Source: Peredibacter starrii (GTDB taxonomy: Bacteria > Bdellovibrionota > Bacteriovoracia > Bacteriovoracales > Bacteriovoracaceae). Taken from it: a stretch of 64,000 nt of DNA. Shown here one piece after another: positions 9,006 to 46,237 of this stretch. The position numbers and the translations under genes are program-made. The first letter of the stretch is position 1, and each line of letters starts with the position of its first letter. Where the stretch lies: assembly GCF_034259205.1 (NCBI RefSeq), contig NZ_CP139487.1, positions 2,728,001 to 2,792,000 of the forward strand, written 5' to 3'. The notes under the pieces are model-generated. The model was not told the origin of the DNA and searched no databases. It saw only the letters and a list, made by a program, of their open reading frames with translations.

Positions 9006-9007
9006 GA

Positions 9008-9772: not shown

Positions 9773-9813
9773 ACTTCTATTGTAAAAGGAATAAAAATAT
9801 TACTCAACTAGTC

Positions 9814-10641
9814 TTAGTCCTGCCGTTTTCCTCGAGAGATTTCCGAGTAAATATCCTTAGTTGGACGATCAAGAATTAAACCCAGTAATTTTGCGGTTTG
9901 TTTAGGAGTGGCCCCTGTTGCCACAATTTCTTGGGCAAGGTCACGAATCTCACTCGAGAAGGCCGCACTTTCTTCTTTCTTATGGAATAAAAAAATGAAC
10001 TCCCCTTTGAAATTCACTTCTTTCTTACGCTCTTTCCATTCGCCGGCCTTGAGCTTAATCACCTGCTCAAACTTCTTTGAAAGCTCACGAACCACGGCCA
10101 GCTCTGCTTCAGGCAAAATCTCCGAGAGTTCATCCAAGGTCTCTTCCACACGAGTGGGGGCCTCAAAAAAGATATGAGTGCCGTAACCCGCGTTCTGGAA
10201 AATCTTGGCGCGTTTCCCACTTTCTCGAGGAAGAAATCCATGAAATTGAAATGGAATGGGTGGCAGGCCTGAAAGCTCGAGGGCCATAATTGGAGATGAT
10301 ACTCCGGAATAAGATTCAACTTTAATCCCCTGCTCGTAGGCCGCAATAACTAGTGGATATGCAGGATCTGAAACAATCGGACTACCTGCTTCTGAGGCCA
10401 CATAAAGATCATCATGACGGGCCATCTCGATTAATTTTCCGATCTGAGTTCCCTCAGACTGATCATGAAGAGAAACAATTCTTTTGCCCTGAAGACTGAC
10501 TCCGATGTGATTTAAAAGGTCCTTGAATACCCGAGTGTCTTCCACGGCAAATTGCACTCCGGTCTTCAATGCCTCAGAAACTCGAGGGGTCATGTCCCCA
10601 AGATTCCCAATAGGCGTGTTTAAGAGAATGATTTTTCCCAC
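9814..10641 (-). CDS. rsmI: 16S rRNA (cytidine1402-2'-O)-methyltransferase RsmI
   Basis: The 275-aa sequence starts with LLNTPIGNLGDMTPR and continues with VEDTRVFKDLL, SEAGSPIVSDPAYP and GFLPRESGKR, which are the RsmI landmarks of this tetrapyrrole-methylase-fold family. RsmI 2'-O-methylates C1402 in the ribosomal P site. In many bacteria it lies close to yraN and rnhB; here those genes are about 1.7 kb upstream on the same strand, separated by a STAS gene and a small membrane-protein gene. Confidence 0.96.
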   Translation of the reverse strand: MGKIILLNTPIGNLGDMTPRVSEALKTGVQFAVEDTRVFKDLLNHIGVSLQGKRIVSLHDQSEGTQIGKLIEMARHDDLYVASEAGSPIVSDPAYPLVIAAYEQGIKVESYSGVSSPIMALELSGLPPIPFQFHGFLPRESGKRAKIFQNAGYGTHIFFEAPTRVEETLDELSEILPEAELAVVRELSKKFEQVIKLKAGEWKERKKEVNFKGEFIFLFHKKEESAAFSSEIRDLAQEIVATGATPKQTAKLLGLILDRPTKDIYSEISRGKRQD

Positions 10642-10710
10642 TCTAAACCCCTTTTAAGTCTCGTGTTAAAATCTTACAGGTACGGGCATGACACCAAAGG
10701 AGATGACCCC

Positions 10711-11106
10711 ATGAGTATGAAGGCCAATGTTCTTCGAGACGCCAGTGGAAATATTATCGTTCATATGCAGGGGGATTTGAACTACGATCATAGCCTACCT
10801 CTCCGAAATGAACTTCAAACTATCGCCAACGATAACCCAAACGCTAAAATTACTATCGACCTGGGCGCCATCGATTTCGTGGGCTCATCAGGTATTTGTC
10901 ATTTTGTTGAGACAGTAAAATTCTTGAAAGAAAACCGCAAGGCAAACGTTAATCTTTCGAACGTAAAGCCGGAATTTCTTAAAATCTTCCGCCTCTACTC
11001 GATCAACGAAGCTGATTATGTTGCTGAGCTTATGAACTTTGATAACGACGATACGGAGAATTTAAATACCCGTTTCGGTAACCGTAATCAAACTTTCGAA
11101 AACTAG
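10711..11106 (+). CDS. STAS-domain protein (anti-sigma-factor-antagonist type)
   Basis: A 131-aa single STAS domain. The start at 10711 was chosen for the AAGGAG ribosome binding site 6-8 nt upstream; an upstream in-frame start would add residues with no homology. The motif IDFVGSSGICHF contains the serine pair (Ser59/Ser60) where SpoIIAA-type proteins are phosphorylated by an anti-sigma kinase. No kinase or phosphatase gene is adjacent, so the partner is unknown. The stop codon overlaps the stop of the convergent gene, and its terminator lies inside that gene. Confidence 0.9.
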   Translation: MSMKANVLRDASGNIIVHMQGDLNYDHSLPLRNELQTIANDNPNAKITIDLGAIDFVGSSGICHFVETVKFLKENRKANVNLSNVKPEFLKIFRLYSINEADYVAELMNFDNDDTENLNTRFGNRNQTFEN

Positions 11107-11582
11107 AAATTATATTGTAATAAGTTAAGTGTAATAGGAGGGATGTTCCCTCCTTTTTTTTGTGCAAATTTCTGCTGCATCGTCTGGAAACGATCAAAGA
11201 AACCACCACGACCATCGTCCTCATCAGTATTGCTACCGCCTTCAGAGTTTTGATAATCGTCACCGTAGATATCGCTTGAATCGCGGTAAGGAGAAGAATT
11301 GTCATCGTAAGAACCGTAACGCTTCTGATGATGAGAGACCAGAATGTAGGTACCAAAAAGAATACCGGCATAAAGACCCAGAGAGGCACCCTGAGCAATT
11401 GAGCGAGAAGAGTTTCCAAAGGCCATAGAAGCGGCACCTAATAAGGCACCTGCACCAGCACCGTAACCAGCAATGGTAAGGAAAGCTTTGGCCTTAACCG
11501 GGATTTCGGCGCGAGCTTGTTGAGCTCCTACCAGGCTTGAGGACATAAGAACGACTAAAAATACGGCCAAGAATTTTCTCAT
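11103..11582 (-). CDS. Small exported protein with glycine-zipper membrane segment
   Basis: A 159-aa unknown with an N-terminal signal peptide (MRKFLAVFLVVLMSSSLVGA), then a Gly/Ala-rich double hydrophobic stretch (about residues 37-84) of glycine-zipper type, and an Asp/Ser/Tyr-rich C-terminal tail. It is probably an envelope protein. Its last codons (KKGGNIPPIT) are encoded by the antisense of the STAS terminator, and its stop overlaps the STAS stop by 4 nt, so the C-terminus may be shaped by the need to hold that hairpin. Confidence 0.8.
   Translation of the reverse strand: MRKFLAVFLVVLMSSSLVGAQQARAEIPVKAKAFLTIAGYGAGAGALLGAASMAFGNSSRSIAQGASLGLYAGILFGTYILVSHHQKRYGSYDDNSSPYRDSSDIYGDDYQNSEGGSNTDEDDGRGGFFDRFQTMQQKFAQKKGGNIPPITLNLLQYNF
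11136..11161 (+). terminator. Intrinsic terminator of the STAS gene, inside the opposing CDS
   Basis: An 8-bp perfect stem (AGGAGGGA / TCCCTCCT) with a 3-nt loop is followed by eight T on the plus strand. It begins 30 nt after the STAS stop codon and lies wholly within the C-terminal coding part of the convergent membrane-protein gene. Confidence 0.9.
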
Positions 11583-11632
11583 AGAAATAGATTAATTAAC
11601 TTCCTGACTTTTTGCAAAAGATACAAACCTGA

Positions 11633-12331
11633 CTATTCGACTACGAATTCTTTCACTTTGCCGAAGCTCTTGCGATGAATGAGACAAGGGCCGTGCTCTT
11701 CAATCGCTTTACGGTGAAAAGGCGTAGGATATCCAAAATTAGAATCAAAACCATATTGCGGATACAACAGATGCATCTCACGCATAAAAGCATCTCGCTT
11801 CTCTTTTGCGATAATCGAAGCAAGACCTATCAGTGGAGATTTTGCGTCCCCTTTCACAATCGGGATTTCTCTCCAGGGATGTGGTTCTCCTGACCAGCGA
11901 AGTTTTGATTGGCCATCGATTAAAACAGTCGTGCGGCTTTTATCCTCACTTGCTAGAAATTCGGCCGCTTCTTTCATTCCACGCATGGAAGCTTGAAATA
12001 TATTTTCGTTATCAATGATCACATGATCCATTTCCCATGTGACGTATTGAACCTCTAGCCCCTTCCAGACAAATGATCGCTTCTCCCGGTAATTTAAAAC
12101 CGGGGCCTTGAATTTCTGCAGAAGCTCTTCACGATGCTCATGAGTGAGCATTTTAGAATCTTTAACTCCATTGCGCCTAAGAGAGCGAACAAGAAGTCCC
12201 AGTTCTTCTGCTGAATGAATCATCACTCTCACCGCTCCGATTACCACAGGCCCACTCAAGGGAGAGCGACCAACTTCGTCGAGAGCGATAATTTCCTGAG
12301 GAAAATCTGAGAGGAGTTTAAGTTCAATCAT
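11633..12331 (-). CDS. Ribonuclease HII paralogue with GRS instead of GRG
   Basis: 232 aa, aligning without gaps to the neighbouring RNase HII (about 64% identity by hand count). The catalytic carboxylates Asp18, Glu19, Asp139 and Asp162 are all present. The GRG motif that in RNase H2 enzymes reads the ribonucleotide at the RNA-DNA junction is Gly21-Arg22-Ser23 here, whereas the other copy has the canonical GRG. RNase HII nicks DNA 5' to misincorporated ribonucleotides. It follows the YraN-like gene by 8 nt with no clear ribosome binding site, so translation may depend on coupling. It is a diverged duplicate, possibly with altered substrate choice. Confidence 0.92.
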   Translation of the reverse strand: MIELKLLSDFPQEIIALDEVGRSPLSGPVVIGAVRVMIHSAEELGLLVRSLRRNGVKDSKMLTHEHREELLQKFKAPVLNYREKRSFVWKGLEVQYVTWEMDHVIIDNENIFQASMRGMKEAAEFLASEDKSRTTVLIDGQSKLRWSGEPHPWREIPIVKGDAKSPLIGLASIIAKEKRDAFMREMHLLYPQYGFDSNFGYPTPFHRKAIEEHGPCLIHRKSFGKVKEFVVE

Positions 12332-12339
12332 GAACTCAT

Positions 12340-12762
12340 TTATAACTCAGATTCGGATCTCACGAGAGAAATAAGTTTTGTCCTCACTCCGAATATTCCG
12401 GCGAGAAAATTCTGAGCAGAGTGAATGCGTTTTTTTTGAAATCTTTCCATCATCTCTTGCCCCATCTCAGAACTTTTCACCTCACCGACTTCTACCGTCC
12501 ATCCCTCTCGGTCTTTTTTCATGCGGGCGAGATCCAGCTGTCCGAGATTTCTTAGCCTGAGTAATTGAGGAGAAACTAAAAGCGGCACGCCTTCAGCGTG
12601 AAAAGTAAGCGAGAAATTATTTTCAAGTTGTGACGAATTCTTTAACGCCTTTGAAGGTCTTGCGATGGATTTCACAGGGCCCGTGAACTTCAAGTGCCTC
12701 ACGGTGGGCCTTGGTTGGGTAACCGGCGTTTGAAGCGAATCCGTATTGTGGGTAAAGCTCAT
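12340..12762 (-). CDS. YraN-like (UPF0102) PD-(D/E)XK nuclease-fold protein, start uncertain
   Basis: The C-terminal half has the PD-(D/E)XK arrangement of YraN: a strand ending GQLDLARM, then EVGEVKSS (the ExK) and a following helix with KKRIHSAQNFL. YraN genes usually sit beside rnhB, as here, between two rnhB paralogues. The only ATG (12762) would overlap the upstream rnhB by 140 nt, and the N-terminal 40 residues then look like rnhB read in another frame; GTG codons at 12702 or 12675 or the TTG at 12693 could be the true start. YraN's role is unclear; a DNA repair or recombination link is suspected. Confidence 0.75.
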   Translation of the reverse strand: MSFTHNTDSLQTPVTQPRPTVRHLKFTGPVKSIARPSKALKNSSQLENNFSLTFHAEGVPLLVSPQLLRLRNLGQLDLARMKKDREGWTVEVGEVKSSEMGQEMMERFQKKRIHSAQNFLAGIFGVRTKLISLVRSESEL

Positions 12763-13321
12763 GCATCTCTTTCATATAAGCATCGCGCTTTTCTTTGGCG
12801 ATGATGGAGGCCAGACCAATCAAGAGAGACTTCGAGTCTCCTTGCACGATTGGAATTTCTTTCCAGGGAGATGATTCTGTACCCCAACGAAGCTTCATGT
12901 TCCCGTCGATTAAAACGGTGGTTAGATTTTTTTCCGTTTCTGAAAGAAACTCAGATGCTTCTTTCATTCCACGAAGACTTGCGGCCAGAATATTTTCTTT
13001 ATCAATGGTGTTGTGACACATTTCCCAGGTGACATAACTCACATCCACGCCTTTAAGATTCAGCACATTCTTTTTTCTGAATGAAAGATCATGGGCGCCA
13101 AGCTTCGTTAAAATCTTCAATCGATTTTCGGCCGTGAGCTTTTTTGAATCCGTCACACCTTTAGGTTTTAAAAATTTCAGAAGAGCTTTAAGTGCATCGG
13201 CGTTTTCAACGTAGAGACGAACTGCTCCAACAACCACCGGTCCGCTTAAAGGACCACGGCCCACTTCATCAGTGGCGATAATTTCCTGAGGGAAAGTTGG
13301 AATGAGTTTCAGTTCGATCAT
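12623..13321 (-). CDS. rnhB: Ribonuclease HII
   Basis: 232 aa with the canonical motifs: DEVGRGPLSGPVV (Asp18, Glu19, GRG 21-23), TDSKKL, LIDG (third carboxylate), QGDSKSLLIGLASIIAK (fourth carboxylate) and GYPTKAHREAL. The enzyme removes ribonucleotides and RNA primers from DNA. This copy keeps every expected residue and is probably the housekeeping one. No ribosome binding site precedes the ATG; a TATAAC hexamer 10 nt upstream of the ATG suggests an almost leaderless transcript. Confidence 0.96.
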   Translation of the reverse strand: MIELKLIPTFPQEIIATDEVGRGPLSGPVVVGAVRLYVENADALKALLKFLKPKGVTDSKKLTAENRLKILTKLGAHDLSFRKKNVLNLKGVDVSYVTWEMCHNTIDKENILAASLRGMKEASEFLSETEKNLTTVLIDGNMKLRWGTESSPWKEIPIVQGDSKSLLIGLASIIAKEKRDAYMKEMHELYPQYGFASNAGYPTKAHREALEVHGPCEIHRKTFKGVKEFVTT

Positions 13322-13386
13322 GGGAGACGGAGTTATACGACAGAGATCGTCACTTCGTCAGAAGAAATTCCATGACGCGTTTCGCG

Positions 13387-14172
13387 TTAAAAAGTATAAC
13401 CGATGTTGAGTCCTACAAAAGTGAACGCCGGAAAGTTCTTAAAGATTTTTTCCACACGTTTAATGTCATCACTGTTCTCTGCATCGAGTCTCTTCAAAAC
13501 TCTTTGTTTAGTTGAAGTCGCTAGCGGCATATTGAAACGAAGCCAGTCTACGCCGAGAGAAATCCCGTTATCAAAAATCCAACGGTTCCCTACCCCGAAA
13601 CTCGCTCCGTAAATGTCCATGATGAAAGATTGGTTGATTCTATTTCCAAAAGTGTCGGCAAATTTATCACCCACAAAAATCTCGAGCTTTGAAACGTAGG
13701 CACCAAAGTTAAAATAAAAACTGTTCCCTACAAAGTATTTCCCCAAGAGTGAATAACGATCTTCTTCTACTCGACCAAGATCAATTCCTGCAATATCCAT
13801 GCTGAACTTTGAACTCGCGTATTCAAGTTCAAGGCCCCAGTGTTCAGTAAAGTTTTGAGTATATGAAAGTGTCTTCTTCGCCGGCACCCAAGTATTCAGT
13901 ACCTGGTAACCCAACATCACTGTTCCGAAGGAATCCCTACGATTGGTCGCTGTCGTGCGCTTTTCTTTCGGCTCTAAATTTTTTGGATCTGCGATCGGCT
14001 CTTCCATCTCCTGAGCTTCAAGGGCCGTATCTTCAATCGGAGAACCCGCAAGTGTCTGTGATTCAGTGGAAGGAACAAAGAAGGATTCAGTGGTGTAAGG
14101 TTCCCTGGGGGCGAGAACTTGGGAGTGGGCCTGTATTGAGAACATCACTGCAAGAATGAGGATGATTTTCAT
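13387..14172 (-). CDS. Outer-membrane beta-barrel protein
   Basis: 261 aa with a signal peptide (MKIILILAVMFSIQAHS), an acidic Glu/Pro-rich linker (about residues 20-75) and then a series of short amphipathic strands (TVMLGYQVL, YFVGNSFYFNFGAY, GVGNRWIF, FTFVGLNIGYTF) that end in a terminal Phe, the mark of BAM-assembled barrels. Function unknown. It lies between rplS (behind its terminator) and rnhB, a position not usual for this operon, so it looks like a lineage-specific insertion. Confidence 0.85.
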   Translation of the reverse strand: MKIILILAVMFSIQAHSQVLAPREPYTTESFFVPSTESQTLAGSPIEDTALEAQEMEEPIADPKNLEPKEKRTTATNRRDSFGTVMLGYQVLNTWVPAKKTLSYTQNFTEHWGLELEYASSKFSMDIAGIDLGRVEEDRYSLLGKYFVGNSFYFNFGAYVSKLEIFVGDKFADTFGNRINQSFIMDIYGASFGVGNRWIFDNGISLGVDWLRFNMPLATSTKQRVLKRLDAENSDDIKRVEKIFKNFPAFTFVGLNIGYTF

Positions 14173-32699: not shown

Positions 32700-35600
32700 A
32701 TGGATGTTAGATTTCTCATTTTAACCTTATTTTTCCTGGTTTCGTGTATGCCAGAGCCCACTGTGGGCCGAGGCAATATCGCGGGATCTGAAACGACTGG
32801 TGGCTCAACCAGTGGTTCAGGCGGTGGTACAACCGCTCCTATCACTACGAAGTGGAATTATCTCGGATCAGTTACAACTTCAATTACCATCAACGTTTCA
32901 AACTTAAACAATGCCTACTTGGTTGGTACGCCAGTTGAATCATATCTGTCCACGACTGAGAATTTCTCAAACGCGAACTACTGTCTTGTGACTAGCTACA
33001 CCCTTGGTGGAGTTCCCCTAGAGCTTCGCTCAAGAGCGGTGCCGATCTCGTATTATGACTTCAATGAAAAGCGCACGGTTCGTGTTCTTCGTGTGGATTT
33101 CCAGGACGTCACAAACTCTTCAACATTTTGTAACGGCACTCTTCGCATAAAAGACAGTAACGGCGACTATATGGTGGATTCATCAACACCATCTGGTTAC
33201 AAGTATGATCCGAATCTTCTTTGTCCTACTTGTACCAGCATGTTGATTGCAAGCAAGGTAAGACTTTTCCAGAGAGGAACTTCTTATCTGGATGAAGTTC
33301 CTACAAACTTAATTACCACTTCTCCATTGGGCATGCAGGTCGATCCAAACTACGCAGCTGGCGGAGGCGCCGGCACTTGTTCAAATGCAGACTGTCAGGC
33401 GCGCGGCTATAACTGCTGTCTTGATAATCAATGTGTGAACGATGGAGCAACGAGACCATCGGCCTCAATTCAATATCCTTCTCTTTTGCAAACTGCAGAG
33501 GCGGAGAGACTACAAAATCCTCTGGCCTACTTAAACTACCCTCAACTTTATTACATCTGTGGAACTTACGTTCCGCCAACATCGACAACTGGTAGTACAA
33601 CTAGCGGTAGTAATGGTGGTTATGATGAGGCCTTCGCAAAACTAAAAAAAGACTATCGTTGTGTTGAGCACATTAAGGCACAGGCAACGACTTCTCCTTT
33701 TCATAATGAACTTCTGTCTCGCTCATACACAGGCACGACAGATTGTCTGACCAGTTCAAGTGACTCTTCTCAGGAAATGTACTTCCAGAGTGTGATTAAA
33801 CGACTTTATACAACTTGTGGATGTTCAAAAACTGAACTTTCAGACATGATCACAAGCTGTCCGGCCTATGAATACCAGGTCGTGACAACTGATACATTGG
33901 GTGAGCCGACAAGTATTGATTGTTATACTCCTCCAACATCGACTCCAACTGTTCCCCCAACGCAAACTGTTTCACTTAACTCGCGTTCAGCTCCTCACCG
34001 TTTCTTTGATACAACTGGTGCCGAGAAAGTTCCGACTGCTTCAAGCACTTTCACTCAAGAAGGTGATGCATTTGAATATTTGGATGAAGGAAAAGTTCTT
34101 CCTAATCAACAAAACTTCAGTATGAATGCAATCCTGGGTCCTATGAGTGTGTTACTCGATAAGACTCTTCCGGCAAAAACCGTGACTGTAGAACTGGATC
34201 AGGTTTACTTTATCTCAACCACATCTGGTTACTACACTCCATGTCCGACTTGCGCCAAGGACTCTTGGTTAAGCTCATTTACTGCATATCCTACAACTGG
34301 GTATGGTGTGGGTCTTCAGGCCGTGGGTCACACGACTGAACGTGATGCTTTCTCGACAAATACGACTGGTGGAAACTATGAGGACACGATCTTTGGTCGT
34401 GCTTGTTGGCTACCTCCTACGATGATTCCTTTTTCTCATTCGGCAAAATCAACTTCAAAAGATCAGCGTCTGAACCGTCTTCAAACTCAGGCGGCCCTTT
34501 TCATTAACGGTTATCAGCGTGACTGGTACGGCTTTAATAAAGGTGCCCTCATTGGTTCTTTCGATGGCGTAACTTGGTTTGCGATTGGTAAAGGTCGTAT
34601 TGTTAAATCGACTTCTAAGAAACTCTTCCTGGCGATTAATGCTCCATTCGCTGATGTGGCCTCTCCAACGATTCACCAAGTGGGCATTTATGCTTACGAC
34701 GGAATTACTCAAGCGGCCCAAGTGGACTATGATCCTCAATATCACCAGTCTCATCCTTATCAGAACGAAGCAGGTAACTGTCAGAAGTATCACATGTGTG
34801 AAACTGACACTGATTGCGTGACTAAACTTGGTTGGGAATATGCTTGTGCAGATATTCGTGATGTGAAAACGAACTGGCCAAGTTTCAGTGCTGACGCTTT
34901 GGAAGTGGCGGCCTCATCTACATCAACTTCAATTGATCAAATTCTTCAACAGAAGCGCCTTCCTTCTTCGACAAGTAAACGTTGTGTTTACCGTGGAGCT
35001 GGTGCTCTTTGTTTAGTGAATTCTGGTTCACTTCCAGCTTCAGATCTTAATAAAAGAAAGATTATGACGTGTGCGCCGAACTTCTACTGCGCTAACGTTA
35101 GTTCTTCTGGAGTCTTTAACTCGAAAGTGGCCCGTTATGCGGCACCACTGGCCGATATTCCAGTTGCCCGTAACCACCTCTTTGGTAAAGACGCCAACGT
35201 GCTTGGTCGTCCTCTTTCATATGTTGCTTCAGGAGACACGACTTCACTACCAAGTGCCGTTCGTTCAACTCTGATTGAAAATATGGTGGCAATGGATGCT
35301 CAAGGCTCAGCTAATACGGGTCTTTGTCAGCCAGGTAAATTACTTCCAACTGCTGCAACTCAAGCGACTTACGGAAATCCTTTCAACCAACATCTGGCCG
35401 CGGACTCTTCTCGTAGAGCAGACTTTATTAGCCAGATTGGTAGCTGTAACTCAACACTCTTCACGTCATACCGTCACTCATCATGTCCAGTCATTGGTTC
35501 AGATGGTAACTATGAACTATTCGCGAATGGAACTCTGGCGGCTGGTTACAATGCTCGCGCCACAAACCAAAACGCTTGTGGACTTGAGTCTTTGGCATCA

Positions 35601-37730
35601 ACTGCGAACCTAAGTCTCTCGGCGGATGACCTTCTTCCATACTCTCCATTTAGAAATATCGAAGCGAAGCCCCTTAACTCTCAGATCATTACTGATCAGA
35701 CGATGGTAAGAGACGCTTGTTTAAGACGTGCTGGGGCCGTTTGTCACACAGATCTGGATTGTACGCCAAACAAGATGCACGCCTCACAAGTGGATTACTT
35801 TGTAACAAACTTCTTTGGTAACGCTGCTGAGAAGAGCTACTACACAGAATACCTGGTGTGCGGACAAATGGATCCAAAACCAGTTGCTTCAAATACTGAG
35901 GCCTTTAAAAACTACGATATGTCGAAGAACCGTTGTTGCCGTGAAATCGGAAGCGACCTCACGACTTATACCGCCGACGTTCCGACCGCCACTCAGGGCG
36001 GAGCTTACAACGCCAACTCTGCTGGTCTTAAAATGTCTCTGCAACCTGGTCTTACTCCTAACGATACAAAACGCTACTCTCGTTTAGCGACAGTGGAAAA
36101 TCTTGGAACTGCAGATCGTCCGATTCTTTCTGCTTACCAGGATCGAAACGCTTCTGGTTACGTCTTAAATAGCGCCGAAGGTGCAAGTGTCATGACTTCG
36201 AAACAATGGCGCACACTGGGTGAAGCAAACTCAGAAAGCTGCTGTGGCGGTGGATGGATCAGAAAATTCTCTGACGGATCAAATGATTGGTCTCGCCGTG
36301 ATCGCGTTTATATGGACGTTACAAACTTCCGTTGTATCAACGCTAGAACGCCACTTCTTACTTCTCCAACCGATCTCGCAACTGAATATAACAATGCTTC
36401 AGACGTAACTGCTCTGGTTGGCCAGGACTATGGTGATTACTGTAAAGATCCAACCAACGTTAAAGGTCAATGTGCTCAAGTTTCGATCACAGACTCTACG
36501 GCCGATACAGCACCGGTTTACGATTCATCAAACCAATATACAACTGTAACGGTAAATACCATCACAACTACCGGGACTAAGGACTTCTACTTTGCTCCAA
36601 GAAGTGCTGATGGTGATGCTTCAGTAATCATTGATTACGGTAATAGTTCTGGTCGCAGAAACATCGTGATCAAAGTTCCAAGTTATATTCCACGCTCTTT
36701 CGATGCGGCCTATGCGGCAACTGCTGATGGTGGCGTACCAGGCACCGCCCTTTATCGCATCTATATGGTGAACTCAAGTGGTGGTACAACTCTTTGTGTA
36801 AAAAACCATGCTATGTCGATTACAAGTCCAACTCAAGTTTATGGTGGTGCAGGTTGTGCTTACACATACAACACTACTTCGCGCGTGTTAAAACTTGGTT
36901 CATCAGGCGGCGCAGGCAAATGGGGTCTTCAATTTGACTCTGCCGTTGCAGGATATGCCTCAGCTCTTTCAAGAACTCGTCCAGCAACAAGCGGTTATTA
37001 CCTACGTCGTCTTGGCCGTCTTGAATTAAGTGGTATTCCTCAAATTCCAATTGAACCACTTTACTGTAATGATAACTCGAATAAATTGGTTCCAGGAGTT
37101 CTTAAGTCGAACATCGCTACTAAGACCGCGTTCGATTCAAATTCGATCTCATTCCTTTATGGCGGAGATGCTGTGGCCACTCGTCGCACGAACTTCACTG
37201 CCCTTCAGGACGAACCAGTGTTCTCGCAAAACGATTTCAAATGCTGTACTCCACTTGGTAAAACAGTGAGTAACACCAATAAATGTTGTTCAGGCTTTGG
37301 AGTGTCACAAGGTGAATCAGGCACAGCGTTTACTTGTGCCCTTCCGCCAGGTGCTAACCTTATGGTGTACTTCAACCGTTTCGTTTCAAACGAAGGCCGT
37401 GGCACAGAACAACCTGGTGGCGGACTTGTTGATGCTGACTTCGCAGATCAAACTGGTGAACCACTTCTTAGCGCATCAGTGAATGATAAAATACGTGAGC
37501 TAGGAATTGCCTACTGTTCAACTGGAAGAGTTCGTCAGGGCGGCGCCTTCGGTTCATTTGAACCAGAACCACAAGGATCGGAAACAAACCTTTCTCAAAA
37601 GATCTATAATATTGTAGATTCATCCAACGACAGCGGTCAGAATTCCAATGCTGGTAAGACTGTTACAACTGGATATGCTCCGTTCACAGATGGATTCAGA
37701 TGGAACCATCACCTCTATTGTGACGACTAG
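32700..37730 (+). CDS. Giant Cys-rich outer lipoprotein of unknown function
   Basis: 1676 aa. Signal peptide with lipobox FLVSC (Cys16), then a Gly/Ser/Thr linker (about residues 24-48). The rest is a long, Ser/Thr/Asn/Tyr-rich extracytoplasmic chain with dozens of cysteines, many paired (YNCCLDNQC, NRCCRE, ESCCGGGW, FKCCTP), suggesting a disulfide-braced surface protein. I do not recognise any family. An in-frame stop lies two codons upstream, so the ATG at 32700 is fixed as the first possible start. The thioesterase gene follows after 6 nt, an odd partner. A surface or predation role is inference only. Confidence 0.88.
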   Translation: MDVRFLILTLFFLVSCMPEPTVGRGNIAGSETTGGSTSGSGGGTTAPITTKWNYLGSVTTSITINVSNLNNAYLVGTPVESYLSTTENFSNANYCLVTSYTLGGVPLELRSRAVPISYYDFNEKRTVRVLRVDFQDVTNSSTFCNGTLRIKDSNGDYMVDSSTPSGYKYDPNLLCPTCTSMLIASKVRLFQRGTSYLDEVPTNLITTSPLGMQVDPNYAAGGGAGTCSNADCQARGYNCCLDNQCVNDGATRPSASIQYPSLLQTAEAERLQNPLAYLNYPQLYYICGTYVPPTSTTGSTTSGSNGGYDEAFAKLKKDYRCVEHIKAQATTSPFHNELLSRSYTGTTDCLTSSSDSSQEMYFQSVIKRLYTTCGCSKTELSDMITSCPAYEYQVVTTDTLGEPTSIDCYTPPTSTPTVPPTQTVSLNSRSAPHRFFDTTGAEKVPTASSTFTQEGDAFEYLDEGKVLPNQQNFSMNAILGPMSVLLDKTLPAKTVTVELDQVYFISTTSGYYTPCPTCAKDSWLSSFTAYPTTGYGVGLQAVGHTTERDAFSTNTTGGNYEDTIFGRACWLPPTMIPFSHSAKSTSKDQRLNRLQTQAALFINGYQRDWYGFNKGALIGSFDGVTWFAIGKGRIVKSTSKKLFLAINAPFADVASPTIHQVGIYAYDGITQAAQVDYDPQYHQSHPYQNEAGNCQKYHMCETDTDCVTKLGWEYACADIRDVKTNWPSFSADALEVAASSTSTSIDQILQQKRLPSSTSKRCVYRGAGALCLVNSGSLPASDLNKRKIMTCAPNFYCANVSSSGVFNSKVARYAAPLADIPVARNHLFGKDANVLGRPLSYVASGDTTSLPSAVRSTLIENMVAMDAQGSANTGLCQPGKLLPTAATQATYGNPFNQHLAADSSRRADFISQIGSCNSTLFTSYRHSSCPVIGSDGNYELFANGTLAAGYNARATNQNACGLESLASTANLSLSADDLLPYSPFRNIEAKPLNSQIITDQTMVRDACLRRAGAVCHTDLDCTPNKMHASQVDYFVTNFFGNAAEKSYYTEYLVCGQMDPKPVASNTEAFKNYDMSKNRCCREIGSDLTTYTADVPTATQGGAYNANSAGLKMSLQPGLTPNDTKRYSRLATVENLGTADRPILSAYQDRNASGYVLNSAEGASVMTSKQWRTLGEANSESCCGGGWIRKFSDGSNDWSRRDRVYMDVTNFRCINARTPLLTSPTDLATEYNNASDVTALVGQDYGDYCKDPTNVKGQCAQVSITDSTADTAPVYDSSNQYTTVTVNTITTTGTKDFYFAPRSADGDASVIIDYGNSSGRRNIVIKVPSYIPRSFDAAYAATADGGVPGTALYRIYMVNSSGGTTLCVKNHAMSITSPTQVYGGAGCAYTYNTTSRVLKLGSSGGAGKWGLQFDSAVAGYASALSRTRPATSGYYLRRLGRLELSGIPQIPIEPLYCNDNSNKLVPGVLKSNIATKTAFDSNSISFLYGGDAVATRRTNFTALQDEPVFSQNDFKCCTPLGKTVSNTNKCCSGFGVSQGESGTAFTCALPPGANLMVYFNRFVSNEGRGTEQPGGGLVDADFADQTGEPLLSASVNDKIRELGIAYCSTGRVRQGGAFGSFEPEPQGSETNLSQKIYNIVDSSNDSGQNSNAGKTVTTGYAPFTDGFRWNHHLYCDD

Positions 37731-38284: not shown

Positions 38285-41200
38285 TTAGTATTTAATGCAG
38301 TAAAGTAGTGCTTTGTTTCGAGGACGGGTTTCAGTTCCACCCGAAGCATTCACAGTTACTGTGTGAGTGTGAGCGCCTGTAGTACTTGTTGTGAATGTGT
38401 GAGCGTGATCTCCTGCCCCGTTCATTCCAACTGAGTGAGAGTGGTTACCAGCACCGTCAGTCCCTTGGTTTGTACTTCTAAAACCATTATTTCCAGGAGC
38501 ATTATCAGTTCCTAGAATGGCATCAGTTGACCAATCGTTAGTTGTAAGAACACTACTGTCCCATGGAAAGAGAGCATTGATGGAGTGTCCGTGATGACCA
38601 TCGGTTGAGGTCCATGCGCCGTGAGTATGGTTACCGTTAGTGCTGGTTGTTCCTGTGTGAGCGTGGTCTCCTGCAGATGCAGAAGAGCCTGTGTGGTTAT
38701 GGGATTTATAATCGTCGGCCTGCGCACTCGCAATCGCTCGCCCAGTATCCACACCTCGACCATCGTCCCAACCTCTCACAAACTCACCACGAAGGTCAGG
38801 AAGGTTAAAGGTTGTAGATCCGTCCCCAGCTCCCCAAGTCGTTCCAACGGCCGCAAATAGGCCCGCATAAGTCGTTCTGGATACCGCCGCTCCATTGGCC
38901 TTGATCCAGCCAGATGGGCAAGTGCTCATGGCATATGTTGCCACTTGTCCCGCAGGAGTAGAAGAACCCATGGTGACCCATGATACTCCATCACATCCTT
39001 CAAAGTTACCACCCACAAATCTCATAGTTCCTTGTTTTGAAGCATTACACGTTCCCGAATCGTTACCGATTTTTACACCACCCTCTACTTCAAGTTTTGC
39101 AGCGGGAGCAGCAGTTGCACCAATCGCCACATCACCGTCATGAGTGATGGTCACGCGCTTTCCTTTCTGAGATAAATCGTCATTAGTCGCCATGACTGTT
39201 AATTGGTTACCTGTAGTTCCATTAACGTTCATGATTTGGAAATTCTTTTTATTGGCCGGTGCCGGAGATGCCGTGGCATTCATTTCTACCACCGCAGTTG
39301 AAGCTCCATTCACCGAACGAGCACTATCAATCCGAACGTAGGCCTGACTATCAGTTGAATCAACGACATGAAGTTCAGCGGCCGGTGTTGCAGTTCCAAC
39401 ACCTACGTCACCTAAATTGTAATAGATGTCACTTCCCGTAGTGATCCATTGAGTTGCCTTTGAATCGACGTAAGTTTTTGTGGCCGCATCTGTGCCAGCA
39501 GTTGGAGTTCCAAGGCCCGTGATCTTTTGGTTACCCATGGCAAGAGGTCCACTCATCGTGTCACCGGTCTTCGCCACAAAACCAGTTTGATTCCCAGTCA
39601 GTTTGCCGATCGCTTGAAGAACTGTATCAGTCGCAGAAACAACTCCAGCAGTTGTTGAAAGCCCAGTTAATGGAGCTGCTCTTACTCTGGCATCGGTATA
39701 ATAAAGATTTGTGACCTCAGGAACTACAGATGTATTGAGAGTCTGCCAGGTTTTATCCCCTCTCCAATACTGAGCGGTCGTTCCGGCAGTGATTGAATTT
39801 TCTTTTGCCGTAAATGAGGCCGCGAGCCCACTAATTTTTGACTGAGAAATCGCCGCACCGGCCGCAATATCATCATCGACAATAGTACCATCAGCAATTT
39901 TCGCTGAAGTCACCGCACTGTTAATAATGGTCGCACTCGACATCGTGCCCGACAGATCTCCACCAACTGCACTTGCACCAGTGGCCACAGTCGCCCATGA
40001 TAAGTTTCCTGAACCATCTGTAATAAGAGCTTGTCCCGACGAACCAGAAGTCCCCGGTAAACTCATTGAGAGATCACTCGCAAGCGAGGCAGGAGCACGA
40101 AGAGTGATGTATTTCGTATTATCTGATTTCAAACGAAGTAAAGTCTGAACATCAACTTTCCCAGAACCCGTAATCGAAAGATTTTTAATGTTATTTACAA
40201 AGAAATCCATCTGCTGGGTCGTAGGATCCCCGGAGTGAACATAATACTTAATCGCCCCGGAAGAAATCGTCGCCGTATCACCAAAATAAACTGAGGCCGT
40301 ATTACTATTTGAAGTAAAAAGATTGATCGCAACCGGACCCACTTCTCTATCAAATGAAGCAACAGCATCTGCAGTTGGAGAATTCGGTGTTCCGAAATCC
40401 GGTTTCACAACCACCTTACCATTCACATGAAGTTTCTGAACTGGATTGGTAGCACCAATTCCAACATTACCCGCGTTGCTGTTATAGATATTTGAACCTG
40501 AGACCGTCCAAGAATTCGCCCCACTAATGGCCGTATCAACATAGTTTTTAGTAGCAGCATCCGTCATCGCCGAAGGCATAGCAAGATTAGTGATCTTGTT
40601 TGTTCCCATATCAATATTGCCACTCATCGTTCCACCGGCCAGTGGAAGTTTTGAGTTATCAACAGAGACATCGGGAACACAAGCAAACGTGACAGTTGGC
40701 CCGGCCGTGAGAGTCAGTTTATCTGTGCCCATACAAGGCGTGAGATCACTTACCAGCGCTTGATTCCAAGCCAGTCCTGGTGTGAGACTTGAAAGAGCAT
40801 TTAATCCTAAGTTGGTTCTGGCATCGGCCGCATTGTTTGCACCGGTACCACCTTGAGTGAGCCCAAGGAACGCCAACTCACTCATGACTCCTGAACCATT
40901 GTTTGCCAATACATAGTTAGGCGTACCACTGGCGAGTTTTGAACGAGAAATATTTCCGGCAAGATGTGAATCCGTCACACCACTATTGCTAATGGCGATG
41001 GTTCCTGAATTTGTGATTGTTCCACCTGAGAGCCCTGAACCAGCGGTGATATCTGTGACTGTTCCTCCAGTCGCACCGACGATCGGTTTGGGCTCCCATT
41101 TTGATCCGGTCCAAGTCAGAACTTCATTATTGTTTGCATTTAATTTTGAAAGACCATGAGCAACTTGGGCCGAAGGAACTGCATGGAGTTCCTGAAACGA

Positions 41201-41533
41201 ATAGGCCTTGCTCGCAGTTAAATTCGTCACTCTAATCGCAGGTGAACTTGGAGTTGTGATTGAGGCCAATACCTGTGAGAGCGTTGGAGTGCCACAATCC
41301 AAATCCAGCTTCACATGAAACACACCATTTGTGAGAGCAACGTTGTTGATGTCTTGGTTACAAAGAACAACTGAGGTATCGGCCGTGCTCGCGAGATCAA
41401 AGCGTAGGTTTACCGGGCCCACTATCGGCGAGCCGTTAGTGTTCACAAGTCTTCCGGAATAACTTAACGATTCAGCATTCGCTGCTGACAATAAGCTGAT
41501 GACTGTTAGTAGTCCCACCAAAGAAAACTTCAT
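38285..41533 (-). CDS. Secreted phage-tail-fibre-like protein with tail-collar and His-x-His needle tip (MAT-like)
   Basis: 1082 aa. Signal peptide (1-20), a conserved N-terminal domain (21-125), a Gly/Ser/Thr/Asn-rich repetitive shaft with fibre repeats (TDAATKNYVD about 324-333, TDAATKTYVD about 681-690, GNVGIG and DVGVG turns), then a phage tail-collar domain (about 861-925) and a His-rich tip. The tip has seven H-x-H motifs at 945, 957, 969, 981, 1031, 1043 and 1055, as in T4 long-tail-fibre needles where such motifs bind iron in a trimer. The architecture resembles the MAT fibres of Bdellovibrio. GGGG precedes the ATG. It lies downstream of a paralogue with a different tip. Confidence 0.9.
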   Translation of the reverse strand: MKFSLVGLLTVISLLSAANAESLSYSGRLVNTNGSPIVGPVNLRFDLASTADTSVVLCNQDINNVALTNGVFHVKLDLDCGTPTLSQVLASITTPSSPAIRVTNLTASKAYSFQELHAVPSAQVAHGLSKLNANNNEVLTWTGSKWEPKPIVGATGGTVTDITAGSGLSGGTITNSGTIAISNSGVTDSHLAGNISRSKLASGTPNYVLANNGSGVMSELAFLGLTQGGTGANNAADARTNLGLNALSSLTPGLAWNQALVSDLTPCMGTDKLTLTAGPTVTFACVPDVSVDNSKLPLAGGTMSGNIDMGTNKITNLAMPSAMTDAATKNYVDTAISGANSWTVSGSNIYNSNAGNVGIGATNPVQKLHVNGKVVVKPDFGTPNSPTADAVASFDREVGPVAINLFTSNSNTASVYFGDTATISSGAIKYYVHSGDPTTQQMDFFVNNIKNLSITGSGKVDVQTLLRLKSDNTKYITLRAPASLASDLSMSLPGTSGSSGQALITDGSGNLSWATVATGASAVGGDLSGTMSSATIINSAVTSAKIADGTIVDDDIAAGAAISQSKISGLAASFTAKENSITAGTTAQYWRGDKTWQTLNTSVVPEVTNLYYTDARVRAAPLTGLSTTAGVVSATDTVLQAIGKLTGNQTGFVAKTGDTMSGPLAMGNQKITGLGTPTAGTDAATKTYVDSKATQWITTGSDIYYNLGDVGVGTATPAAELHVVDSTDSQAYVRIDSARSVNGASTAVVEMNATASPAPANKKNFQIMNVNGTTGNQLTVMATNDDLSQKGKRVTITHDGDVAIGATAAPAAKLEVEGGVKIGNDSGTCNASKQGTMRFVGGNFEGCDGVSWVTMGSSTPAGQVATYAMSTCPSGWIKANGAAVSRTTYAGLFAAVGTTWGAGDGSTTFNLPDLRGEFVRGWDDGRGVDTGRAIASAQADDYKSHNHTGSSASAGDHAHTGTTSTNGNHTHGAWTSTDGHHGHSINALFPWDSSVLTTNDWSTDAILGTDNAPGNNGFRSTNQGTDGAGNHSHSVGMNGAGDHAHTFTTSTTGAHTHTVTVNASGGTETRPRNKALLYCIKY

Positions 41534-41565
41534 TCCCCTGTCCCTTCATGTGAAGTTACGGAGAC

Positions 41566-41593
41566 TTATCGACACTAGACGGGAGAAAAGTTA
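41566..41593 (-). promoter_or_regulatory. Possible sigma28 (FliA)-like promoter for the collar-tip fibre gene
   Basis: On the minus strand TAACTTTT, 12 nt and GTCGATAA resemble the flagellar-sigma consensus TAAAGTTT-N11-GCCGATAA, 33 nt before the ATG. The spacer is one base too long and two -35 positions differ, so this is weak. Confidence 0.25.
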
Positions 41594-41661
41594 AAGCATT
41601 CCTAACAAATTAAGGTGCTCCAAAGGCGGCCTGGAAAATCAAGATTTTAGACGATGTCCGA

Positions 41662-43503
41662 TTATTCCAATCGGTAAAATTTGATGGTGCCTCCAGCATT
41701 ATTGATGCTGATATTTCCATTGGTATGATTTGGCCCAGTCATAAAACTTACGGCCGCATTTCCTCCGGCGATTCCTAAAACAGATTTGTAGCGAGTGACT
41801 GAACCACTAGCAACGTTCACAGTTGGGGCCATATGTCCTAAGAAACCACCGGCCGGTCCGAAACCAAGCTGAACATTTCCCGCACCAGTTGCTGTGATCG
41901 TAACATCAACTTCGATTAAGTATTGACCTGAAGCTGGCGGAGTAAACGTAACACTTCCTGAGATCGCACTTTTTAGAGCAGCATTTCCATAAGCACCATA
42001 TGAGTGAACAGTAGAAACCGTATTAGGAGTGGCAGGTGGTGCCGAGGCCCAGCCGTTCATATCAATCACCACGAATGCACCCACAGCGGCCGTCGTTTGT
42101 GTTGTTCCATCTGGAAATCTGAATCCACCACTACTTGATTCAATAGTTCCTGCGACTGAAAGTTTATAGCTTGGAGAAGTATTTCCGATACCGACGTTTC
42201 CTGAAACGCCACTATAGATATTGCTACCACTCGTGACCCACTTCCCATCGACATAAGATTTTGTGGCGGCATCAGTTGTGGCAGTCGGAGTTCCAAGATT
42301 AGTAATCTTGTTGTTGCCCATATTGATCGCACCGGTCATGGTTCCACCGGACTTCAAAAGGAAATTTGCAACATTACCAACAAGTTTTCCAATCGCGGTC
42401 AACAAGGAGTCAGACGAAGTCACTGTTCCAGCAGTCGTATCCAATCCTGTTAAAGTTGTTCCCCTCACCGCTGCATCCAGTGGTTGCAGAGAGTGATCAC
42501 CTCTAAAATACTGATCCGATGTTCCCACCGGAATAGCATTCTGTTTATTCGCCAGATCAGTTGTTAAATTTGCAATCTTCGATTGAGCAATGGCGGCCCC
42601 GCTCGCCACATCAGCATCAACTATCGAGCCATTTTCAACTGCATCTTCACAAGACCAATTCATTGGCCCTAAGTTCATATGAAGTTTTTGAGATGGTAAA
42701 CAGTTAGGTACATCACCTGAGAGCACAGTTCCTGCACCTACTCCAATATTGGCCGTCGCACTGGATCCCAGACCTAGATTTGTTCTTGCCCCGGCCGCAG
42801 TGTTAGAACCCGTACCACCACTCGACAGAGGAAGCTGGGCCACTTCAGTGAGAGCACCTGATCCATCATTCATAATGACGTAATTTGGAGTTCCACTCGC
42901 AAGTTTCGCTCTAAGAATGCCGTTTGCGAGATGAGTGTTTGTCACTCCTGCTGTATCAATCGAAATTGTTCCGGAATTTGTGATTGTTCCACCTGACAAA
43001 CCCGATCCGGCCGAAATGTCAGTGACTGTCCCACCAGTTGCACCAACAATTGGTTTTGGTTCCCACTTAGAACCGGTCCATGTGAGAACTTCATTATTAT
43101 TTGCATTTAGCTTTGAAAGATTATGAGCAAACTTGGCCGACGGAACCGAGTGAATAGATTGAAAGGAATAGACCTTACTCCCATTTGTCACTCTTATCGC
43201 AAGTGAATCACCGGATGGAATTTCATACAACACTTCTTCAAAAGTTTTTCCCGAGCGAACAGAACAATCAAAATCCAACGAAACATGAAATACACCATTG
43301 GTGAGTGAGACTCCCGAAACCGTATCATCACACTTAATTGAACTTGTGGAGTTAGTGTAGGCCAATTCAAAGAAGAGTGTAACCGGGCCCGCTACCGGCG
43401 AACCATCAGCGTTCACCAAACGACCTGAATAGCTGAGAGTTTCCGCGGTTGCAGAAAAGGACAGACAGCCAGCAAGGAGACAGATCAGTTTCTTGTGTGC
43501 CAT
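41662..43503 (-). CDS. Secreted phage-tail-fibre-like protein with C1q/TNF-like tip (MAT-like paralogue)
   Basis: 613 aa paralogue of the next gene downstream. The first 245 residues match it closely; residues 127-182 differ at only 3 of 56 positions. A shorter shaft follows (fibre repeat TDAATKSYVD about 410-418, FRFPDGTTQTTA at 461-472), then a compact all-beta tip (about 475-613) with the strand pattern of C1q/TNF jelly rolls (TFTPPASGQYLIEVDVTI near 519-536). The N-terminus could be a signal peptide (cut near 20) or a lipobox LLAGC with Cys13. GAGG lies 7 nt before the ATG. It probably trimerises and binds a target different from its neighbour. Confidence 0.88.
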   Translation of the reverse strand: MAHKKLICLLAGCLSFSATAETLSYSGRLVNADGSPVAGPVTLFFELAYTNSTSSIKCDDTVSGVSLTNGVFHVSLDFDCSVRSGKTFEEVLYEIPSGDSLAIRVTNGSKVYSFQSIHSVPSAKFAHNLSKLNANNNEVLTWTGSKWEPKPIVGATGGTVTDISAGSGLSGGTITNSGTISIDTAGVTNTHLANGILRAKLASGTPNYVIMNDGSGALTEVAQLPLSSGGTGSNTAAGARTNLGLGSSATANIGVGAGTVLSGDVPNCLPSQKLHMNLGPMNWSCEDAVENGSIVDADVASGAAIAQSKIANLTTDLANKQNAIPVGTSDQYFRGDHSLQPLDAAVRGTTLTGLDTTAGTVTSSDSLLTAIGKLVGNVANFLLKSGGTMTGAINMGNNKITNLGTPTATTDAATKSYVDGKWVTSGSNIYSGVSGNVGIGNTSPSYKLSVAGTIESSSGGFRFPDGTTQTTAAVGAFVVIDMNGWASAPPATPNTVSTVHSYGAYGNAALKSAISGSVTFTPPASGQYLIEVDVTITATGAGNVQLGFGPAGGFLGHMAPTVNVASGSVTRYKSVLGIAGGNAAVSFMTGPNHTNGNISINNAGGTIKFYRLE

Positions 43504-44039: not shown

Positions 44040-44849
44040 ATGCATGTATCTTATTTACTGTTTTTTCTATCACTTTCTGTGTTTGCAGAGGCTCCTCGGC
44101 AAATCCAGGTGATTCCAAACCCTCAAAGTGTCGAGGATTTCGATCATCAGTTTAAGGGCTGTCTGGAAAATTCGGAATGCGATCAGGTGATGGGGTTGCA
44201 GCTTAGTCGCTGGAAAGAACTAATTGATAAGCTTAAAGAAGATAAGGTTGAAGCGGCCAAGAAACCGCAGTTTGTTGAGCTATTCCGCGGAAAGTATGGA
44301 ATCCCGGTGGAGTTCTACACTTATCAAAAATCTCAACAAGGTTTTAAACCTCTCCTATTTAACTCTCCTTGCAAAGATCACAACCCAAAAGACCCAAATC
44401 AAAAAGTTTTACGAGGCATCGCTTTTGTAAAATCTCTTACTAAAGAGAAGGCAGTGGTCTGGAGAGATCAAACTCAAATTGAAGTTCCAACCGATGAACT
44501 CCTGATGCCGCAACCTGTGACGGTTTATTATCCAGAAGGTGCAAAGACTTACTATCTTCCACTCGGTGAACAACCACTCTTCCTGAAAAATAAAGAAATG
44601 TATGTGCTAAGAGAAGAAGACGGATTTTTCTATCCACTAAAAGTTTCAGAAAACGGCGATTGGAAAATCGAAGGTCTCGACATGGCCCGATTAACTGAAT
44701 GGGAAGACAAAAAAGAAAATGTGACTTGTCCTAAGGACGAGAAAAAACTCGCCCCGAAAGTTTTCGGGGTCGAGTTTTGTAAATCTGTTTGGGATGAAGA
44801 CTCAAAGAAAACCGTGGTGGTGAAAATGCACCAGGGCTGTGTTATTTAA
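44040..44849 (+). CDS. Secreted protein of unknown function
   Basis: 269 aa with a signal peptide (MHVSYLLFFLSLSVFAEA). The mature protein is rich in charged residues and carries six cysteines (CLENSEC, NSPCKD, NVTCPKD, VEFCKS, QGCVI), so it is probably periplasmic with disulfides. No family recognised. Its last 8 nt overlap the convergent lipoprotein gene, and codons about 234-247 encode, on the antisense strand, that gene's terminator. Confidence 0.8.
   Translation: MHVSYLLFFLSLSVFAEAPRQIQVIPNPQSVEDFDHQFKGCLENSECDQVMGLQLSRWKELIDKLKEDKVEAAKKPQFVELFRGKYGIPVEFYTYQKSQQGFKPLLFNSPCKDHNPKDPNQKVLRGIAFVKSLTKEKAVVWRDQTQIEVPTDELLMPQPVTVYYPEGAKTYYLPLGEQPLFLKNKEMYVLREEDGFFYPLKVSENGDWKIEGLDMARLTEWEDKKENVTCPKDEKKLAPKVFGVEFCKSVWDEDSKKTVVVKMHQGCVI
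44742..44779 (-). terminator. Intrinsic terminator of the lipoprotein operon, inside the opposing CDS
   Basis: A 16-bp stem with one bulged base (AAAACTCG and CCCCGAAA against TTTCGGGG and CGAGTTTT, 2-nt loop) is followed by six T on the minus strand. It lies within the reading frame of the convergent 269-aa protein, beginning about 63 nt past the lipoprotein stop. Confidence 0.85.
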
Positions 44850-45495
44850 GAATCGCTCTTCTTTCCATCGACTGGCCATCAGCACAGTTGGCAGTAGAGA
44901 CAACTTTACGGTCAGTGAAGAAGCCGCGGTTAGAACCAGTAATCTGAACTTTCATCCATTCTTTTGTATGAATCACGTAAGAGTTGCCGTCGTATTGTGA
45001 ACCACGCTCAACCTGAACACAGTATCCATCACTTGAACTTTCACAATCATCTTTAGCAGGAGTTGTACTGAACCAAATTGCACCTGAAGCAGTTTGCATT
45101 GGGTTTGTAAGAGCTGTTCTGCTCTGACAAATTTCTTTCATAAGTCCCGAAGTCGAAGTTTCAACGTTACTAAATCCAAAGGCATCACCGTTCACCGATT
45201 TAAAAACATAGCTTGAACCAGTGTCTTGAATTGAAACTGTTACGTTTTTAGGAATGCCGGCAGATTTTCCGCAATCTTTCTGAGAATAAGCAAATGTATA
45301 TTGATTTGAAGTCAGAATATTGAGAATGCCTTCCTTATAAAGAAGAGCACCACAAATCGCATTGATACGAGAAAGAATCATTGGATCATCGACTGAAATA
45401 GGATCAAGGCTTCTTACCTCTTTACCTACAACCTGTTTATCACTTTCGCTAACACAACCAGCGACAACAAAAAGGGCCACAAGGATGAACTTCAT
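44842..45495 (-). CDS. Lipoprotein, paralogue of the upstream gene
   Basis: About 217 aa. The start is one of two adjacent ATGs at 45498 and 45495; GGAGG lies 5 and 8 nt upstream of them. A more distant ATG overlaps the GGAGG itself. The lipobox is VVAGC. The mature protein has six or so cysteines and ends ERRAILK. It shares with the upstream gene the order SxVETxTSG, C(V/I)QxE, EW(M/V)xxxxxxS, GFFTxRK(K/V)VS and the C-terminus, so the two are diverged duplicates. Function unknown. Confidence 0.82.
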   Translation of the reverse strand: MKFILVALFVVAGCVSESDKQVVGKEVRSLDPISVDDPMILSRINAICGALLYKEGILNILTSNQYTFAYSQKDCGKSAGIPKNVTVSIQDTGSSYVFKSVNGDAFGFSNVETSTSGLMKEICQSRTALTNPMQTASGAIWFSTTPAKDDCESSSDGYCVQVERGSQYDGNSYVIHTKEWMKVQITGSNRGFFTDRKVVSTANCADGQSMERRAILK

Positions 45496-45510
45496 CATAA
45501 TTGCCTCCAT

Positions 45511-45565: not shown

Positions 45566-46237
45566 TTATTTCAGGAGAGCTCGGTACTCGATGGATTGGT
45601 TGGTTCCACAGAAAGAACGTGAAACTTTCTTTCTTTGGGTGAAAAATCCGATTTTCTGTCCGGTTGAATTGCTCACACGAAAACGCACCCATTCCTGAGT
45701 GGTAACTGTGAATGAAGAACCGGAAAGAGGTCCGTTTTCAATCAATACACAAATTTCACCACTAATAGGAGAACAGTCGGCGCTGCTAATTCCCGATGTC
45801 GTGATTGAAGTCACGGTATTATCACTATTTACAGTTTGAGTCTGAAGGTTTGAAAGATTAGAACAGAAAGGGGCCATGACTCCAGAAGTATTGGTTTCAA
45901 CATTTTGGAAAATAAATGCAGTCCCATCTTCTTTTCTAAATTGGTATTCACTTCCAAGATTTTGAATGGTGGTTTTCACAGCACCGGTGAACAACATCGT
46001 GCCGTCACAATTAGTTTGAGAGGCCTCAAAATTATGAACAGAATTAACCGCAGAATTTAAGATGCTGCTCTTCTGTGCCAGAGCATTACAGATACTTGTG
46101 ATGTTACTTTGCAAAGTTGTATCGGCAACCAGTGGTTGAAAAGCGCGAGACTGACCTAGAGAACTCCCAGGAACTTCACCCTCATACTTTCCACAAGCAA
46201 ATGCCAATACGGCCAATGAAAGAACGACAAGTTTCAT
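45566..46237 (-). CDS. Lipoprotein, paralogue of the downstream gene
   Basis: 223 aa with a lipobox LAFAC (Cys15). The mature part shares with its neighbour the spaced cysteines and the motifs NVETNTSGVM, CVLIENG, QEWVRFRVSNS, GFFTQRKKVS and EYRALLK. It lies 5 nt downstream of a third lipoprotein gene, so the three form one operon. Function unknown. Confidence 0.85.
   Translation of the reverse strand: MKLVVLSLAVLAFACGKYEGEVPGSSLGQSRAFQPLVADTTLQSNITSICNALAQKSSILNSAVNSVHNFEASQTNCDGTMLFTGAVKTTIQNLGSEYQFRKEDGTAFIFQNVETNTSGVMAPFCSNLSNLQTQTVNSDNTVTSITTSGISSADCSPISGEICVLIENGPLSGSSFTVTTQEWVRFRVSNSTGQKIGFFTQRKKVSRSFCGTNQSIEYRALLK

Follow-up and report, generated by a model that had tools for sequence, protein, structure and literature searches.

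Two adjacent open reading frames (ORFs) of Peredibacter starrii, found in a window of 64,000 nucleotides (the whole stretch analysed, contig NZ_CP139487.1, positions 2,728,001 to 2,792,000), encode exported fibre proteins whose N-terminal base is homologous to that of the mosaic adhesive trimer (MAT) fibres of Bdellovibrio. Both frames are open and lie in tandem on the minus strand with a gap of 128 bp between them. According to the ORFs and their translations, the first protein (P1; 38285..41533) is a MAT-type fibre of 1082 aa composed of a signal peptide, a base domain, a shaft, and a collar/needle tip, and the second (P2; 41662..43503) is a MAT-type fibre of 613 aa with a short shaft. All features of the pair are given in window coordinates and belong to the minus strand. 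The signal peptides were called by eye from residues 1-20: in P1 (41474..41533) the sequence is MKFSLVGLLTVISLLSAANA, ending in ANA before ES, and in P2 (43444..43503) it is MAHKKLICLLAGCLSFSATA, ending in ATA before ET. The sequence-only reading of this DNA had described tandem minus-strand exported fibres with a common base and unrelated tips, and this description is borne out.

The two proteins have a block in common, residues 126-181 of P1 (40991..41158) and 127-182 of P2 (42958..43125), in which 53 of 56 residues are identical; a recount returned the figure given earlier. Beyond the block, windows of 25 codons drop to 6-19 identical residues out of 25. The DNA beneath the block differs at 34 of 168 nt. 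The previous estimate of some 17 differing sites in 98 nt was right in its gist but turned out to be an undercount. Different codons encode 27 of the 53 identical residues, and the four-fold degenerate third positions match at 15 of 32 only, which is near scrambled. Such agreement at four-fold sites means that the identity of the block reflects protein-level constraint, not a recent duplication or gene conversion, and the latter candidate was rejected on this ground. Judging from its codons, the block is old and conserved as a protein, as had been supposed for the base.

The base domain itself spans residues 21-151 in both P1 (41081..41473) and P2 (43051..43443), as delimited by the base-domain alignment. 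For P2, AlphaFold2 predicts a beta domain with a predicted local distance difference test (pLDDT) score of mostly about 90 for residues 21-118. The claim that these fibres carry a shared N-terminal domain different from that of Bdellovibrio does not hold. An hhalign comparison of the Bacteriovoracaceae base profile with the Bdellovibrio base profile gives a probability of 98 and E 2.9e-13 over 126 columns, whereas an unrelated profile used as a control reached a probability of 0.1; the presumed different domain therefore becomes a diverged form of the same one. The Bdellovibrio profile finds 20 genes in B. bacteriovorus HD100, Bd2133 among them, the published count of MAT proteins in this strain being 21 (Caulton et al. 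2024, PMC10769870). A stretch of 56 residues of Bd2133, taken from PDB 8ond, has a 100% match in HD100, and the gene reads 1031 aa, which is the published length (PMC10769870). Compared with the HD100 base, the Bacteriovoracaceae base is without an insertion of ~30 residues and is ~25% identical in the profile alignment. By this profile evidence, P1 and P2 have the Bdellovibrio MAT base in a shorter form that has diverged.

The tip of P1 (residues 855-1081; 38291..38971) resembles the needle of the T4 long tail fibre protein gp37 (phmmer to 2xgf, E 1.4e-15). It includes a phage tail Collar domain, PF07484, at residues 862-919 (38777..38950; Pfam E 5.6e-22), which scores 77.9 bits vs. the Pfam cut-off of 24, and seven HxH motifs at residues 945, 957, 969, and 981 and then 1031, 1043, and 1055, with a spacing of 12 residues. 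The T4 gp37 needle likewise has seven iron-binding HxH sites. Relatives of the P1 tip are encoded in 660 phage records, the best-ranked one being 47.7% identical over 97% of the tip. The proposed phage tail-collar/His-needle tip is supported. P1 is like gp37 in that the collar is followed by the needle; unlike gp37, its needle is fused to a signal peptide and a MAT base, not to the rest of a phage fibre.

The shaft of P2 has a motif (residues 426-481; 42061..42228) in common with the trimeric MAT protein Bd2133 (PDB 8ond; phmmer E 4.5e-11). Its tip (residues 475-613; 41665..42081) is predicted by an AlphaFold2 monomer model to be a jelly roll, with pLDDT mostly 50-72. Structural alignment of this low-confidence model gives Z 7.5-7.6 against C1q heads (91-103 residues, 2.3-2.9 Å) and Z 7.9 against the tumour necrosis factor (TNF) ligand 4-1BBL, and other jelly rolls score alike. 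No convincing sequence relatives of the tip were found in Pfam, PDB, phages, or 290 genomes of the phylum. The predicted jelly roll may resemble C1q/TNF-like heads, among which are the MAT tips Bd2439 and Bd2734, but the tip has no sequence similarity to them. The earlier assignment of a C1q/TNF-like tip is plausible in view of the alignment to C1q heads but weakly supported, given the quality of the model and the ties with other jelly rolls.

The pair does not stand alone. The base domain is present in 12 genes of the 4.15 Mb genome, all of them exported ORFs of 600-1450 residues, which are grouped at 939-956 kb (five), 2697-2712 kb (two), 2766-2772 kb (the pair described here), and 3046-3058 kb (three). 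Seven of the 12 have S74 (PF13884) ends and five do not; S74 and non-S74 tips occur side by side in the HD100 repertoire too. The P1 base is 87% identical to the base of a paralogue which has an S74 end and no comparable tip. The P1 tip, on the other hand, is 58% identical over 231 residues to the tip of a fibre from UBA6200, a metagenome-assembled genome (MAG), while the bases of these two proteins are only 48% identical; its collar part is about 58-60% identical to tips of Bdellovibrio MATs. Since the nearest relatives of the base and of the tip differ, P1 is a mosaic and tips have been exchanged. In a scan of named genomes, all full-length relatives came from Bacteriovoracaceae MAGs, and three contig-edge fragments came from MAGs labelled Proteobacteria only. 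The family has in common with the HD100 MAT fibres the signal peptide, the homologous beta-rich base, the phage-like shafts, and the large number of members; a collar/needle tip such as that of P1 is not among the published HD100 structures. The homologous base, the repertoire, and the origin of the intact named relatives support the idea of a MAT-type fibre in a Bacteriovoracales form. The pair is of a known kind, MAT fibres in divergent form, accompanied in the family by a new partner gene that is described below. In our opinion, P1 and P2 are quite likely two members of a 12-protein MAT repertoire of a Bacteriovoracaceae predator or a predator relative.

The upstream regions point to when these fibres may be made. 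The attack-phase FliA (sigma-28) consensus of HD100 is TTAAG-N16-CCGATA (PMC3627812). A whole-genome pattern search revealed a FliA-type promoter-like site, TTAACTTTTCTCCCGTCTAGTGTCGATAA, before P1 (41566..41594); its spacer is one nucleotide longer than that of the consensus, and one base is off in each box. Aligned upstream regions of Bacteriovoracaceae fibre genes display TTAA and CCGATAA at matching spacing. The strict pattern precedes 15 of 72 fibre genes vs. 11 of 620 other ORFs (p 1e-9). Genome-wide there are 52 FliA-type sites, compared with 19 in a reversed-pattern control, and 7 of the 52, P1's included, lie within about 65 nt upstream of MAT start codons. Among the Bdellovibrio MAT genes read, 1 of 21 has the strict pattern upstream. 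On the basis of these sites, FliA-type promoters probably drive the transcription of several fibres, including P1, during the motile attack phase.

Other fibre-like and neighbouring proteins were noticed as well. Prepilin-like N-termini (KxxGxGLIEALLAVG type) are fused to S74 chaperone C-termini in proteins of about 376-528 aa at 349-354, 913, and 507 kb (L126 3044-7766; L127 3166-4749; L128 3576-4703). Three of them stand in tandem beside ftsA/ftsZ-like genes, and they appear to be pilin-anchored phage-like tips. A third fibre class consists of lipoproteins with an 'IxxVKVQNDQLIVSGxxL' base and S74 ends, 1357-1511 aa when intact (L123/L124, 3058292-3067284; L068/L125, 3946081-3958844; L129 1715-6184; L130 1563-3575). 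Segments of their shafts reach 53% identity with MAT shafts over a length of 616 residues, and two members have FliA-type sites just upstream (3067337 and 3950224). Two further proteins, of 756 and 1077 aa (L017 4793-7060 and 7284-10514), with Tat-like (RRKF) N-termini and RCC1-like repeats, are encoded between two MAT genes. A search of the open literature for Bacteriovorax tail fibres or S74-pilin fusions yielded nothing relevant.

Reading of the neighbourhoods of base genes revealed one recurrent neighbour, a partner protein of 440-690 residues. Its N-terminal transmembrane helix is followed by an RxPAS-type motif, then by a long disordered linker, and finally by a C-terminal domain of ~280 residues. 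The motif is located about 25-45 residues after the helix in 21 of the 24 partners read; of the three partners without it, two resemble lipoproteins. No Pfam family matches the protein, and no regulatory domain was found in it. A fold assignment was dropped since the model is too poor (mean pLDDT 46.5) and even the best structural alignments are moderate (Z at most 8.5, over about 82 residues). Two partner copies are present in this genome, at 936703-938772 and 2711995-2713365, each beside other fibre genes. Two versions, L182 (7223-8236) and L183 (250-1224), stand alone, away from any fibre gene; they have a predicted lipobox and lack the RxPAS motif.

Co-occurrence was assessed in 116 Bacteriovoracaceae genomes that are at least 80% complete. 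The base is present in 25 of them, and all 25 have the partner as well; two genomes have the partner only (one of these decayed) and 89 have neither. The association is strong (Fisher p 2e-23), the genomes not being independent of one another. Within the genus, 11 genomes have both, 1 has the partner only, and 12 have neither (p 5e-6). In several genera, genomes with and without base and partner are interspersed, a pattern that speaks for the two having been lost or gained together repeatedly. For 28 of 38 partner copies, a base gene is located within 3 kb vs. 0.38 expected, and every one of the 28 is at the fibre gene's 5' end: 16 upstream on the same strand, 12 divergent, and none convergent or downstream. 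Several of the partners away from fibre genes share a single conserved location in the genus. In the proven predator Halobacteriovorax marinus SJ there is just one base gene and just one partner, at 7635-13400 and 5320-6852 of L082, respectively. As a side observation, the genus divides into about half of the genomes without base and partner and others with up to 17 MAT bases, a contrast which may track lifestyle.

Given the matches of the P1 tip and of the shafts to families of phage tail fibres, one could suppose that the pair stem from a prophage or tailocin as degenerate or domesticated tail fibres that work on a phage-like particle and not at the cell surface. Signal peptides stand at the N-termini of both P1 and P2, however, and the 12 base copies sit in four clusters amid housekeeping genes. 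None of 50,697 phage records contains the base, and none was confirmed in IMG/VR (2.9 million viral contigs), so that a prophage origin of the base was rejected. A scan of neighbouring genes showed no phage structural family. This agrees with the earlier description of phage-derived fibres with no phage genes nearby. The phage-particle explanation is largely refuted, and we regard it as very improbable. Somewhat less remote, though still improbable, is the view that the fibres are general adhesins of a non-preying bacterium, serving in biofilms, colonisation, or as phage decoys, and merely resemble the MATs of predators. The named relatives are indeed MAGs, and tip repertoires by themselves are no proof of predation. 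Yet the predator H. marinus SJ has the same base, the homologous base is that of HD100, whose MATs are displayed on the surface (PMC10769870), and FliA-type attack-phase sites precede many of the fibre genes.

With regard to the partner, we tentatively propose two-component prey recognition in Bacteriovoracaceae, in which exchangeable MAT fibres would plug by their base into a docking protein of an undescribed family and would be switched on by FliA in the attack phase; we rate this at somewhat under an even chance. Several points weigh against the overall picture of a MAT repertoire with its partner and promoters: no partner copy adjoins P1 or P2, 10 of the 38 partner copies have no base gene within 3 kb, no FliA-type site was found before P2 by the pattern search, and the P2 tip model is of low confidence. 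The partner is found only in Bacteriovoracaceae and has no match in Bdellovibrio; no recurrent neighbour is evident at the Bdellovibrio MAT loci read, and the HD100 fibres, unlike those of Bacteriovoracaceae, have no accompanying membrane-tethered partner gene that we could find. Also, about half of the genus is without base and partner, which indicates that the lineage can do without the system. A reading to which we give much the same weight makes the partner a regulator or an export/assembly factor, not a resting anchor. The transmembrane helix, the long disordered linker, and the C-terminal beta domain would suit an inner-membrane factor equally, and partners are fewer than fibres per genome (2 vs. 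12 here). In contrast, the predicted lipoproteins L182 and L183 fit tethering, and the lack of a recognisable regulatory domain speaks against a regulator. It is rather unlikely, in our estimate, that the linkage merely reflects joint travel in a mobile cassette, where the two proteins need not touch. Presence is patchy within genera and clusters could move whole, but the linkage, in either of its two arrangements, always concerns the fibre gene's 5' end, and base genes are accompanied by a partner without exception, even where the latter is elsewhere in the genome. Independent rearrangement with the pairing kept suggests functional coupling of base and partner.

As for the rest of the window, a 1676-residue cysteine-rich lipoprotein with no Pfam match is encoded near the fibre pair (32700-37730). 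At 44842-45510 and 45566-46237, two paralogous genes in tandem encode exported proteins of 222-223 aa that belong to no known family and have conserved cysteines. No Rfam or tRNA match to RNA genes was obtained in the window.

We assume the following mode of action for the MAT-type fibres. The signal peptide would export each fibre, the conserved beta-rich base would remain at the cell envelope, and a trimeric beta shaft of variable length would point outward. An exchangeable phage-derived or lectin-like tip, which is the phage collar with its HxH needle in P1 and a small jelly-roll-like domain in P2, would then bind prey surface chemistry. The fibres would present these tips in the motile attack phase, several being driven by FliA-type promoters. 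In Bacteriovoracaceae, the base probably docks on the membrane-tethered partner or is exported with its help.

In general, these data show that the MAT idea applies to another predatory lineage besides Bdellovibrio, and that tips are exchanged among lineages as well as with phages. They bear on how predators recognise many prey types and on what holds MAT fibres on the surface. The surface element bound by the MAT base awaits identification (PMC10769870), and the partner, present in every base-bearing Bacteriovoracaceae genome and mostly placed next to a fibre gene's 5' end, is a concrete candidate anchor. The single base gene and single partner of H. marinus SJ make the anchor question simple to address there. 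If the proposed docking role is true, the partner would be the first anchor to be identified for MAT fibres.

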